A DNA stretch of 34,430 nucleotides from contig JAUVDN010000012.1 of assembly GCA_030595325.1 (NCBI GenBank), positions 1-34,430 of the forward strand, given 5' to 3'. Source of the DNA: Gammaproteobacteria bacterium. GTDB taxonomy: Bacteria > Pseudomonadota > Gammaproteobacteria > SZUA-229. Both the position numbers and the translations under genes were made by a program. Positions 24,558 to 27,309 of this stretch are shown one piece after another; position 1 is the first letter of the stretch; every line of letters starts with the position of its first letter. A model generated the notes under the pieces. That model was given only the letters and a program-made list of their open reading frames with translations, was not told the origin of the DNA and did not search any database.

Positions 24558-25358
24558 ATGAAAAAATTACTCTTATTTGTCTTGTTAGCTGTTTCTGTAA
24601 ATCTTCAGGCGCAGGAACAAGCCTCGAATTTATCTGAAAGTAGTATTAAAGTTGTGAAAAGTCCGGGAAATCGAGTGGCTATTTTAGAGCTATATACATC
24701 AGAAGGCTGTAGCAGCTGCCCGCCGGCAGATCGCTTTCTCAGTGCACTAAAAGATGCTGGTATCAGTGATGAGCATCTTATCCCAATGGCATTTCATGTC
24801 ACCTATTGGGACTATATCGGCTGGAAAGATCGTTTCGCAAAAAAACAATATGATCAGCGTCAGCGAAACCAGGCGCAAAAACAGAAAAAATCGACGGTAT
24901 ATACACCACAGTTTATGCTGTCCGGTGATGATTATCGTAGCTATGCGTCATTCAATAGAGATGTAAATAAATTGGCTGTACAGCTGGCAATGGTCAATCT
25001 TGAACTCAGTGTTCGTGTTTTACCTGATGATAAGCAACCCGAAAAGCTTCTGCTTAAGCTTAAGTCAGATATTTCAGCCAGCGAAATTAAAGACGTTGGT
25101 TTTTATATTGCGATAACTGAAAGTAACTTATCTAGTAATATTGAAGGTGGTGAGAATGAAGGTGAGAAATTACGTCATGACTTCGTGGTTAGAGAATTGT
25201 TAGGCCCATATTTTCAAAGTAAGCCAAATCTTTTAAACCAGATTGAGCAGACTATAACGTTGTCGTCAGAATGGAAAAAGCAAGATTTAAATATTGTCGC
25301 GTTTGCAGAAAATCTGCATACGGGTGAAGTGTTGCAGGCGGTCAGCCTGAAATACTAG
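24558..25358 (+). CDS. DUF1223 thioredoxin-like exported protein
   Basis: A 266-residue exported protein. A signal peptide (about residues 1-18, ending LQAQ) is followed by the DUF1223 domain, with LYTSEGCSSCPPADRFL (Cys51 and Cys54 as a CxxC) and VTYWDYIGWKDRF, a family hallmark. The fold is thioredoxin-like and the CxxC could be redox active, but no member known to me has an established substrate. It follows metZ after 48 bp on the same strand, so it may share its transcript. The 48-bp gap has long T runs but no GC-rich stem. Confidence 0.88.
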   Translation: MKKLLLFVLLAVSVNLQAQEQASNLSESSIKVVKSPGNRVAILELYTSEGCSSCPPADRFLSALKDAGISDEHLIPMAFHVTYWDYIGWKDRFAKKQYDQRQRNQAQKQKKSTVYTPQFMLSGDDYRSYASFNRDVNKLAVQLAMVNLELSVRVLPDDKQPEKLLLKLKSDISASEIKDVGFYIAITESNLSSNIEGGENEGEKLRHDFVVRELLGPYFQSKPNLLNQIEQTITLSSEWKKQDLNIVAFAENLHTGEVLQAVSLKY

Positions 25359-25380: not shown

Positions 25381-25602
25381 TTAATCAGAATTATTTTTGT
25401 GGCCACGGCCTAACACTGCATATATCGGGCAGAATGCTGCAATACCAGAAAATAGCGGGATTATTCCAATCCAACCTAACTTCCATAGGTGTATTAATTC
25501 AAAATGTAGTAGTGATGTCTGTGGACCGAACCAGGCAAGGGCAATGAGAATGAGCCCGAAGATGACTCTAGCGAGTTGACTAAAAATATTTAAATTACAC
25601 AT
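25381..25602 (-). CDS. DUF2892 small membrane protein 1
   Basis: A 73-residue inner-membrane protein with two hydrophobic helices (about residues 8-26 and 40-62). The family signature is the pair ARVIFGLILIALAW and LGWIGIIPLFSGIAAFCPIYAVLG. DUF2892 is also the membrane part of E. coli YgaP, a rhodanese. A second member lies at 25743-25943, also on the minus strand. The strand order is regulator, then DUF2892 copy 2, then this copy. A weak dyad-like TGACAGCTGAATCA sits in the upstream gap. Function of the stand-alone form is unknown. Confidence 0.88.
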   Translation of the reverse strand: MCNLNIFSQLARVIFGLILIALAWFGPQTSLLHFELIHLWKLGWIGIIPLFSGIAAFCPIYAVLGRGHKNNSD

Positions 25603-25704
25603 CTACAAATACGCACTTATTAGTGACAGCTGAATCATTAAATAAGGTGCCAATTGTAATGCATTTGAATGCAGTCGTCCTTGACTAACATTACTGAATG
25701 CAAA

Positions 25705-25740
25705 AATAATTCTATAAAAATTATAAAATTATTCTTTTTT
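25705..25740 (-). terminator. AT-rich stem-loop after the second DUF2892 gene
   Basis: AATAATT (25705-25711) pairs with AATTATT (25727-25733), and the pairing continues after one mismatch through TATAA/TTATA around an AAA loop. Six T follow at 25735-25740, and an A run precedes it, so it can end transcripts from either side. The low GC makes it weak. Confidence 0.55.
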
Positions 25741-25742
25741 AA

Positions 25743-25943
25743 CTACTTAATCGGACAGGTTTTAATTCCAAACAGGGTGTAAGCAGGACAAAACTTGAAG
25801 ATACCTGTTGCTAGAGGAATAATACCAATCCAACCCCAAACAATATTTTGACCAATTATCTGGTCACCAACAAATACTAAGCTGATTAAGATTAAACCAG
25901 CAAGTATACGAATTACACGATCGATTCCGCCAACGTTAAACAT
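25743..25943 (-). CDS. DUF2892 small membrane protein 2
   Basis: A 66-residue inner-membrane protein. VGGIDRVIRILAGLILISLV and WGWIGIIPLATGIFKFCPAY match the DUF2892 signature, and the C-terminus KTCPIK adds a second cysteine to the FCPAY one. It is the paralogue of the protein at 25381-25602, and its own start is preceded by an upstream palindrome at 26016-26030. It follows the Crp/Fnr gene by 119 bp. The conserved Cys pair could take part in sulfur or redox chemistry, as in YgaP, but this is only inference. Confidence 0.9.
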   Translation of the reverse strand: MFNVGGIDRVIRILAGLILISLVFVGDQIIGQNIVWGWIGIIPLATGIFKFCPAYTLFGIKTCPIK

Positions 25944-26015
25944 ATTTACATCTCCAGTAGGATTAATGAAACAATTAATGATGGCTGTATATTAGAGAAA
26001 TTAAATATAGATGTC

Positions 26016-26030
26016 TGTGACAAAGTCACA
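26016..26030. promoter_or_regulatory. Palindrome upstream of DUF2892 gene 2, possible operator
   Basis: TGTGACAAAGTCACA is a perfect 6-bp dyad around a 3-bp centre. It resembles the CRP half-sites TGTGA and TCACA but with 5 bp between them instead of 6. It lies 73 bp upstream of the DUF2892 start and just after a Crp/Fnr gene, so that regulator may bind here. Confidence 0.5.
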
Positions 26031-26062
26031 TATTGATAACTTCTTGAATATTATATTTTTTA

Positions 26063-26734
26063 TTATGTATTGTTTGCAATCGACTGTAACCCATCGATGT
26101 CATTTATTTTTATATTGCCGCGATTTATCTCGATATAACCCTTGGATTCTAATTCTTTTAATTGGCGACTGATAACTTCGCGGGCACTACCTAGTTCGGT
26201 CGCTATGTTCTGATGGGTAGATTTCAGGCTGTTTTCACTGTTGCATTGCTTAAGTAAATATTTTGCCAGTCTCATATCAATCTTTCCAAAAGCGACCTCT
26301 TCGATCAGTGTGATCAAATCACTGAGGTGAGATGAAAATGCTGAAAAAACCATCTCTCTAAAAGTGATAGATTCTCGCAGTGCATTGCTAAATTGATTAG
26401 AAGGAATGGCTAATGCAGTAACGGCTGTTTCTGTTTTTCCTTCGGCAGGGTAGTTTTTATTACCGAACAAACAAGACGTTGTTAGCACGCATGAGTCTCC
26501 TTTATTTAACCGGTAAAGCAGGATTTCACGGCCGTTCTCAGCACGTGTAAATACTTTTACTTTGCCATCTAATACCAGAAGATAGTTATTACAGGCATCA
26601 CCCTGTGAAAAGACTGTGCTGTTCTCAGGTAATGAAATAATACTGGCAGCGTCGAGTAATGTACATGCAGTTTCATCAGCCGATTCACATAGTTCAGGTA
26701 GAACCTGTCGCCAGCTGATATTGGAGTCACTCAT
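26063..26734 (-). CDS. Crp/Fnr family transcriptional regulator
   Basis: A 223-residue regulator with a cNMP-binding-type sensor domain (about residues 30-140; VFSQGDACNNYLLVLDGKVKVF) and a C-terminal winged helix-turn-helix (about 165-215; THQNIATELGSAREVISRQ). The N-terminal Cys cluster of FNR is absent. Two cysteines, Cys82 and Cys88 in SCVLTTSCL, lie in the sensor domain; they might sense redox or sulfur species, but this is not shown. The start at 26734 overlaps the lytic transglycosylase stop codon as ATGA, giving translational coupling; a TTG start 4 codons upstream is possible but less likely. Two DUF2892 genes follow downstream. Confidence 0.9.
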   Translation of the reverse strand: MSDSNISWRQVLPELCESADETACTLLDAASIISLPENSTVFSQGDACNNYLLVLDGKVKVFTRAENGREILLYRLNKGDSCVLTTSCLFGNKNYPAEGKTETAVTALAIPSNQFSNALRESITFREMVFSAFSSHLSDLITLIEEVAFGKIDMRLAKYLLKQCNSENSLKSTHQNIATELGSAREVISRQLKELESKGYIEINRGNIKINDIDGLQSIANNT

Positions 26735-27309
26735 GATTTGTACCAATGGTTGCTCAAAGCGATAAGCACTTTATTGCTATAAACTTTTGAGCCAGCACTA
26801 CCGTTGTATCTGGCGAGTGCTTTATGCAGGTTGTTTTCTTCCATATCCATATAATACTTTAATATGGTACATCCCATTCGTAGATTAGTTTTCATCTCAA
26901 TAAGGTTGTCATCAGGTCGGCCAATCTCGTCTAGCCAGAAAGGCATTACCTGCATCATACCCTGAGCACCGGATTTTGATATGGCATAAGAATCGAAATG
27001 GCTCTCTACTTCGATAAGAGCAAGTACCAGTTCTGGTTGAAGCTTGGCGCGAGATGCTTCCAGGTGAATCTGCTTAAGCATGGTTAAACGTGTTTTTTCA
27101 TCTTTGATGAAACGTTTCAATCGATTAGACATATCCAGTAACCAGACTTCAGCATGGAATTTATCATCAAAACTTTCTGATGAATTGATGGCGTCAGTTA
27201 GCAACTGGCGTAGTTCTGGGTCAAATTCTTGATTGCCGGCATACGCATGCGTGATTGCTTGTGCATTAAAGACAATTAAAAAGAGTACAGTGATTAAGCG
27301 ATTGATCAT
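26731..27309 (-). CDS. Lytic transglycosylase (SLT domain), exported
   Basis: A 192-residue peptidoglycan-cleaving enzyme. A signal peptide (about residues 1-24, ending HAYA) is followed by a short helical region and the SLT domain from about residue 85. The motif LALIEVESHFDSYAISKSG (97-114) gives the catalytic Glu102, followed by GAQGMMQVMP, and ALARYNGS near the C-terminus. SLT enzymes cut glycan strands to 1,6-anhydromuropeptides in the periplasm. It is 61 bp downstream of proS on the same strand and overlaps the Crp/Fnr gene, so the three may be one unit. No lipobox is seen, so it is probably soluble. Confidence 0.93.
   Translation of the reverse strand: MINRLITVLFLIVFNAQAITHAYAGNQEFDPELRQLLTDAINSSESFDDKFHAEVWLLDMSNRLKRFIKDEKTRLTMLKQIHLEASRAKLQPELVLALIEVESHFDSYAISKSGAQGMMQVMPFWLDEIGRPDDNLIEMKTNLRMGCTILKYYMDMEENNLHKALARYNGSAGSKVYSNKVLIALSNHWYKS

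Follow-up and report, generated by a model that had tools for sequence, protein, structure and literature searches.

In a 34,430-nucleotide stretch of gammaproteobacterial DNA, analysed as a whole and called the window hereafter, a regulator of the Crp/Fnr superfamily is followed by a short palindrome and two genes for small membrane proteins of the DUF2892 family. I put a probability of roughly 0.6 on the reading that this regulator would be a thiol-based, sulfane-sulfur-responsive activator with one evident target in its own genome, DUF2892. The operator and its target are well supported by comparison between genomes; the signal and the chemistry of the cysteines I infer.

Results

The locus consists of the following features, in window coordinates:

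26063-26734, minus strand: regulator of the Crp/Fnr superfamily, 223 aa, ATG start at 26734, with Cys82-x5-Cys88 and R-E-x3-R
26016-26030, no strand assigned: predicted operator TGTGAC-AAA-GTCACA (GTGA-N5-TCAC), TGTGACAAAGTCACA, the only exact copy in the genome and conserved
25989-25994, minus strand: predicted -10 hexamer TAATAT, read from the sequence, at a fixed offset in relatives
25743-25943, minus strand: first DUF2892 / YgaP-like TM protein, 66 aa, PF11127 at 79.5 bits, the predicted first and main target
25381-25602, minus strand: second DUF2892 / YgaP-like TM protein, 73 aa, PF11127 at 48.7 bits

On the minus strand the order is a lytic transglycosylase gene (SLT), the regulator, the palindrome, and the genes for the 66-aa and the 73-aa DUF2892 proteins. 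The palindrome reads TGTGACTTTGTCACA on this strand (26030-26016) and begins 33 bp past the end of the regulator, its centre at 26023 lying 80 bp before the first DUF2892 start and 29 bp before the TAATAT hexamer. The stop codon of the SLT gene and the ATG of the regulator overlap as ATGA (26731-26734); an SLT neighbour is found upstream of the regulator in 17 of the 115 loci described below and is, according to neighbour clustering, lineage-specific. The second DUF2892 gene, which stands behind the first in several loci of the same genus as well, possibly shares a transcript with it. Adjoining the pair is a convergent DUF1223 gene with a CSSC motif (24558-25358), a relative of which is present in six of the 115 loci.

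The coordinates of the initial annotation are correct. Both small proteins exceed the cut-off of PF11127 (25.3 bits), and the regulator matches cNMP_binding and HTH_Crp_2 (26063-26746). The Cys82 and Cys88 that it pointed out in the regulator are present in the numbering from the ATG, and because this ATG is at 26734, they equal residues 86 and 92 of the TTG-started open reading frame. The cysteine pairs that it saw in the small proteins are there too, as C52 and C63 in the 66-aa protein and C2 and C58 in the 73-aa protein. PF11127, the DUF2892 of older annotation, is the YgaP-like TM family, whose name refers to the membrane portion of the rhodanese YgaP. Among 90 aligned DUF2892 rows N3 and R12 are invariant, with C52 kept in 84, P53 in 87, Y55 in 88 and C63 in 70, so that a CPxY...C motif is found in most of these relatives; the 73-aa protein lacks its last cysteine.

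The window genome (2.3 Mb, 82.8% complete) holds TGTGACNNNGTCACA at a single exact place, and the two places with one mismatch are both inside open reading frames. Loose matches to the palindrome, with up to three mismatches, occur in the window at chance level (13 found, 12.9 expected), and its significance therefore rests on exactness and conservation. Absence of the palindrome from relatives had been named as the observation that would speak against a regulatory role, and the comparison gave the opposite: a clear orthologue of the regulator (70-81% identity) is present in 10 of 17 other genomes of the genus, and all 10 have TGTGAC-N3-(G/A)TCAC upstream of DUF2892. The site stays with DUF2892 even where a uracil-DNA-glycosylase-like gene (G014) or an EAL-domain-like gene (G007; both named by eye) lies between regulator and operator, and in G016 the operator and the DUF2892 pair are on a different contig from the regulator, beside a divergent gene. 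The distance from the operator centre to the DUF2892 start is 67-69 bp in nine of the 10 genomes and 59 bp in G003, compared with the 80 bp in the window. On this comparison the palindrome is a conserved, well supported putative operator of DUF2892.

In order to survey the wider family, an alignment of 31 regulator rows was used, which matched in 107 of 369 genomes of the class at E <= 1e-45. The resulting set of 115 loci comprises 80 of the listed places, 22 loci from the window's family or Amphritea, and 13 alphaproteobacterial, plasmid and other loci; it takes in paralogues and leaves out the window itself. An exact GTGA-N5-TCAC lies within 400 bp of the regulator in 57 of the 115 loci, as against five for a gap of 6 bp (N6), three for N9, two for N8, and none for N3, N4 and N7. 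In the 114 loci with enough downstream sequence, DUF2892 stands directly behind the regulator in 70 and not in 44. The 70 adjacent loci, from gamma- and alphaproteobacteria, have the exact N5 site in 48 cases, N6 and N9 in one each, and none of the remaining spacings from 0 to 12; upstream of the regulator no exact N5 is found in these 70, and two are found in the other 44. When one mismatch is allowed, N5 is present in 66 of the 70 (7.6 in shuffles) and the other spacings in 3 to 26, the highest being N9 with 26, an excess that is probably due to the conserved GA behind the site. The four loci without such an N5 site are L133, L141, L159 and L191, the first two of which share, by eye, a similar dyad with a 6-bp gap.

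Only eight of the 44 loci without an adjacent DUF2892 have an exact N5 close by. The putative targets among these include a dioxygenase-like gene (L037), YeeE (L048), and TusA with a DsrE-like protein (L201), while at L195 the exact site precedes a gene to which no name can be assigned. In six more of the 44 (L004, L049, L116, L142, L182, L200) an exact site is located further on, just before DUF2892. At L123 and L126, which belong to the eight loci with an exact site close by, the N5 site is followed by DUF2892 (assigned through the PF11127 match of G110) and then by two genes identified by eye, one for a small heavy-metal-associated protein and one for a P-type ATPase of the copper type, an arrangement in which a link between sulfur and copper handling is possible.

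The occurrence of the site follows that of the regulator. Within 345 bp upstream of DUF2892 genes from class genomes without a regulator match at E <= 1e-45, the exact N5 is found in 0 of 29, N5 with up to one mismatch in four of 29 and exact N6 in two of 29; 29 of 30 places were used here, L224 being dropped as the start motif missed its gene. The best-scoring DUF2892 genes of genomes that do have the regulator, adjacent to it or not, show the exact N5 in five of 20 and N5 with up to one mismatch in 13 of 20, so this set, which was not chosen for adjacency, is weaker than the adjacent one (48 of 70). On a tree made with a quick method, N5 sites are scattered across the whole family (33 label changes, 39.8 in shuffles), which therefore shows many apparent losses, with deep branching weakly supported.

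Clustering of the neighbours in the 115 loci recovered DUF2892 in 80 of them, with 84 of its 88 copies downstream of the regulator, and no other recurrent downstream neighbour in the gammaproteobacterial loci. A pattern for a wider regulon, GTGACNNNGTCACNGA, has matches in 48 of 64 chosen genomes, where the backward control pattern matches as well. Among the 30 of its places that were inspected as loci, no recurrent extra gammaproteobacterial target was observed; besides the sites of the regulator and DUF2892, most are inside open reading frames and six are intergenic, before unrelated genes or no recognised ones. At L109 (G017:C329) two tandem N5 sites (2766 and 2799) separate a paralogue with 37% identity from a large divergent open reading frame, which suggests autoregulation of this second regulator. 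At L177 (G135:C1:943600-954800) three related Crp/Fnr regulators follow one another in tandem over about 4 kb, and the middle one has two N5 sites.

For the geometry of the promoter, 47 sites were aligned on the operator centre; as many of the sequences are related, these are not independent trials. The aligned motif is GTGAC-N3-GTCAC, followed by G at +8 (40 of 47) and A at +9 (41 of 47). A TA...T hexamer starts at exactly +29 in 24 of the 47; for each of the remaining offsets in the range 8 to 59 the count does not exceed three. The usual distance from a -10 box to the transcription start is 7 bp, and the start in the window is accordingly expected near 25982; the operator would then be centred near -41, the position of the activator in class II CRP/FNR promoters. 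In several loci the stop codon of the regulator falls inside the operator (offset -3).

The regulator belongs to the Crp/Fnr superfamily by its matches to PF00027 (55.3 bits, cut-off 27.5) and PF13545 (57.4 bits, cut-off 27), next to a marginal match to RepL (23.2 bits, cut-off 20.3). Pfam gave no ArsR-family match, so it is not of the SqrR/BigR type. Its scores do not reach the cut-off of any of the 12 NCBIfam models that it matched, among them those for FtrB (NF006901, the best named match, 62.4 bits, cut-off 211), CRP (NF008732, 57.5 bits, cut-off 266) and FNR (NF008365, 20.7 bits, cut-off 228), and the N-terminal cysteine cluster of FNR is absent. FNR-like, NnrR-like and FtrB membership were ruled out by scores and half-sites. 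Elsewhere in the window genome there is a true CRP (282 bits, cut-off 266) and also an FNR-like protein (177.9 bits, cut-off 228). The cassette of the regulator reads DSCVLTTSCLFGNKNYPAEGKTE, without the GE...R pattern of the cyclic-nucleotide cassette of CRP, which is seen in the genome's own CRP. In the 116 aligned rows R189 and R194 (in the long open reading frame) are kept in all 116 and E190 in 115; these residues presumably correspond to those with which CRP reads DNA.

As for the cysteines, Cys82 (86 in the long open reading frame) is present in 116 of 116 rows, Cys88 (92) in 106 and Cys48 (52) in 98; four of the 10 regulators without Cys88 (L151, L174, L177, L181) still have an exact N5 site in their locus. 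In the AlphaFold model (pLDDT 91.9) Cys82 is located just before, and Cys88 within, a short helix (87-95), in a region that, by alignment, would correspond to the cyclic-nucleotide cassette of CRP. Because both are at the start of or inside this one short helix, a direct Cys82-Cys88 disulfide would, on the model, need local unfolding. Fold comparison pointed to the general CRP fold only, with CRP, FNR and NtcA chains among the matches listed, and gave no indication of the signal.

The sulfur connection comes mainly from plasmids. Relatives of the Palleronia regulator are present in 26 plasmid records, 12 of which were examined and for which the PLSDB gene table is incomplete; one plasmid operon is interrupted by a transposase. 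In nine alphaproteobacterial plasmids genes annotated as sulfur genes lie behind the regulator: DUF2892, SulP and an MBL hydrolase in eight of nine each, YeeE/YedE in six (with a hypothetical protein at that position in a seventh), DUF6691 in six, and TIGR01244 (sulfur transferase)/BLH-phosphatase, by itself or as a fusion with an FAD oxidoreductase, in seven. In the Azospirillum and Thiothrix records (two of the 12) the site is found with DUF2892, and no further sulfur gene is evident. The exact N5 is present behind the regulator or before DUF2892 in nine of the 12 records, namely eight of the nine sulfur operons and Azospirillum; Thiothrix and P. aminophilus have it with one mismatch, and Pontibacter has sites with a 6-bp gap.

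BLH_phosphatase and Sulf_transp domains were found among the sulfur neighbour proteins. The MBL protein of Ruegeria sp. TM1040 scores 374 bits against the dioxygenase part of Blh, below the two-domain cut-off of 625, and it matches solved chains such as 9g8t, 4efz, 4ysk, 4ysb and the BpPRF entries, several of which are presumably persulfide dioxygenases. Against an SQR model the FAD portion of the fusion reaches 189 bits, below the model's cut-off of 525. One alphaproteobacterial cluster adjoins genes for peroxiredoxin, Dps and cytochrome bd. The regulator of Pontibacter (Bacteroidota) is a distant homologue with 27% identity to the query in which C-x5-C is retained, and its plasmid (L053) has four exact GTGA-N6-TCAC (1551, 5730, 6678, 8292) and two one-mismatch sites in a sulfur cluster, located 66-126 bp before genes for rhodanese (exact sites before two), TauE, MBL, trxB and MFS; this may be a similar regulon with CRP-like spacing.

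In the window's own lineage no sulfur enzymes linked to the operator were found, DUF2892 being all that the gammaproteobacterial loci widely share. As these loci have no sulfur-enzyme neighbours, the sulfur signal is carried over from the alphaproteobacteria and a few others. The pair of rhodanese-like (by eye) and persulfide-dioxygenase-like genes in the window genome (L290, G000:C82) has no N5 operator.

Discussion

The initial annotation suggested a small self-contained circuit, for instance for sulfur or redox stress, around a near-CRP palindrome. Conservation gives strong support to a circuit formed by the regulator, its operator and DUF2892 (10 of 10 in the genus, 48 of 70 in the wider family, 0 of 29 without the regulator). 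The sulfur part of the guess gains from the nine alphaproteobacterial plasmids, a few other loci and the invariant cysteine, and is weakened by the lack of an operator-linked sulfur enzyme in the window's lineage. Near-CRP holds for the half-sites and not for the gap, which is 5 bp instead of 6 throughout the family.

Judging from the conservation, a dimer of the regulator would bind GTGAC-N3-GTCAC and, as the fixed -10 box suggests, would activate DUF2892 from a site about 41 bp before the start, in the manner of class II promoters. The signal may be reactive sulfane sulfur (persulfide or polysulfide), sensed by Cys82, usually together with Cys88, at a sensor that probably sits where CRP has its cyclic-nucleotide cassette. 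The DUF2892 proteins, in what is the weakest step, might transport sulfane sulfur at the membrane or get rid of it there. In other genomes a regulator and an operator of this kind, observed in front of a whole sulfide-oxidation operon, would control that operon.

CRP sites have TGTGA half-sites with a gap of 6 bp. The system described here shares with CRP and with class II CRP/FNR promoters the two Pfam domains, the TGTGA/TCACA half-sites and an activator-type position relative to the -10 box, and with CRP, presumably, the R-E-x3-R recognition residues. It differs from CRP in its 5-bp gap and in the C-x5-C that replaces the cyclic-nucleotide cassette. FNR, FixK2 and NnrR likewise belong to the superfamily and have palindromes in front of their target genes, but these have TTG...CAA half-sites and a 6-bp gap (for FixK2, PMC6710368), and the N-terminal cysteine cluster is absent from the window regulator. 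The best PDB sequence match, 3dv8 (153 bits with the profile), is an uncharacterised Crp/Fnr protein of Eubacterium rectale that keeps C-x5-C; its entry title gives no function, and it was compared by sequence alone.

With SqrR, BigR and PigS the system shares a linkage to genes for dioxygenases, sulfurtransferases and short YeeE-type transporters. These regulators are of the ArsR family, SqrR and BigR being repressors, whereas here a Crp/Fnr protein has an activator-like site. From this comparison it would therefore appear that another protein family, with a site of activator type, occupies a niche resembling that of SqrR/BigR/PigS. CstR/YrkD and FisR combine a cysteine-based response to sulfane sulfur with control of SQR and dioxygenase genes, FisR as an activator (PMC9774590 and PMC9918477), but they belong to other protein families than Crp/Fnr. 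A review of reactive-sulfur sensing names, in the portion available, CstR, SqrR/BigR, PigS, FisR, OxyR, LasR and OhrR (PMC9774590); the word Fnr is absent from its text and Crp occurs only in two references. Crp of A. baumannii was found persulfidated (PMC7315123), and PmpA and PmpB are short YeeE-type proteins described in a paper whose accessible text mentions neither Crp nor Fnr (PMC11582611). No Crp/Fnr regulator of persulfide genes was found in the literature searched, in which the slash form "Crp/Fnr" was hardly covered and most subscription journals and preprints were outside the scope. The switch is found in many proteobacteria and in some of these adjoins genes for sulfide detoxification, which points to a sulfur sensor of a family that is not commonly associated with this task.

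Alternatively, the pair of operator and regulator may be real but respond to nitrosative stress or a different thiol oxidant (H2O2, HOCl, NO or disulfide), with the sulfur genes as just one output among several. A cysteine pair can be a generic thiol switch, a DUF2892 gene and trxC are found in the NnrR regulon of Bradyrhizobium (PMC6710368), and the cluster beside peroxiredoxin, Dps and cytochrome bd genes fits as well. However, the recurrent content of the operons in the nine plasmid records is specific for sulfur, and the NnrR boxes are of the TTG...CAA type, not GTGA-N5-TCAC (same source), which makes this alternative, though the best surviving one, unlikely. Repression of DUF2892 in place of activation I consider distinctly improbable: it would agree with the known sulfane-sulfur regulators SqrR/BigR and CstR/YrkD, which are repressors (PMC9774590 and PMC9918477), but a repressor site does not need the fixed phasing to the -10 box. 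The predicted position about 41 bp before the expected start is that of a class II activator. That the palindrome is an ordinary cAMP-CRP site, with the local regulator a bystander, is hardly credible and was ruled out on spacing and co-occurrence, since despite the true CRP in the genome and half-sites that match its TGTGA, 48 of 70 loci show an exact site with a 5-bp gap and one shows an exact site with a 6-bp gap, the site goes together with the local regulator (no exact copy at the 29 DUF2892 genes without it), and alphaproteobacteria have it next to a regulator of this type as well.

For the sulfane-sulfur-responsive activator, I hold it an even question whether it represents an undescribed, widespread class of Crp/Fnr proteins, in which the cassette is swapped for a C-x5-C sulfane-sulfur switch, the proteobacterial palindrome is 1 bp shorter than canonical CRP/FNR sites, and the minimal regulon is a stand-alone YgaP-type protein. 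If this is true, the Crp/Fnr superfamily would join the dedicated reactive-sulfur regulators, and the stand-alone YgaP-type membrane protein would be a core component, so far unrecognised, of the way in which bacteria deal with sulfane sulfur. The exact operator predicts targets in many genomes, and the 5-bp gap offers a direct test case for the fit of Crp-type dimers on DNA. DUF2892, a common small membrane protein without an assigned role, thereby gains a hypothesis for its function.
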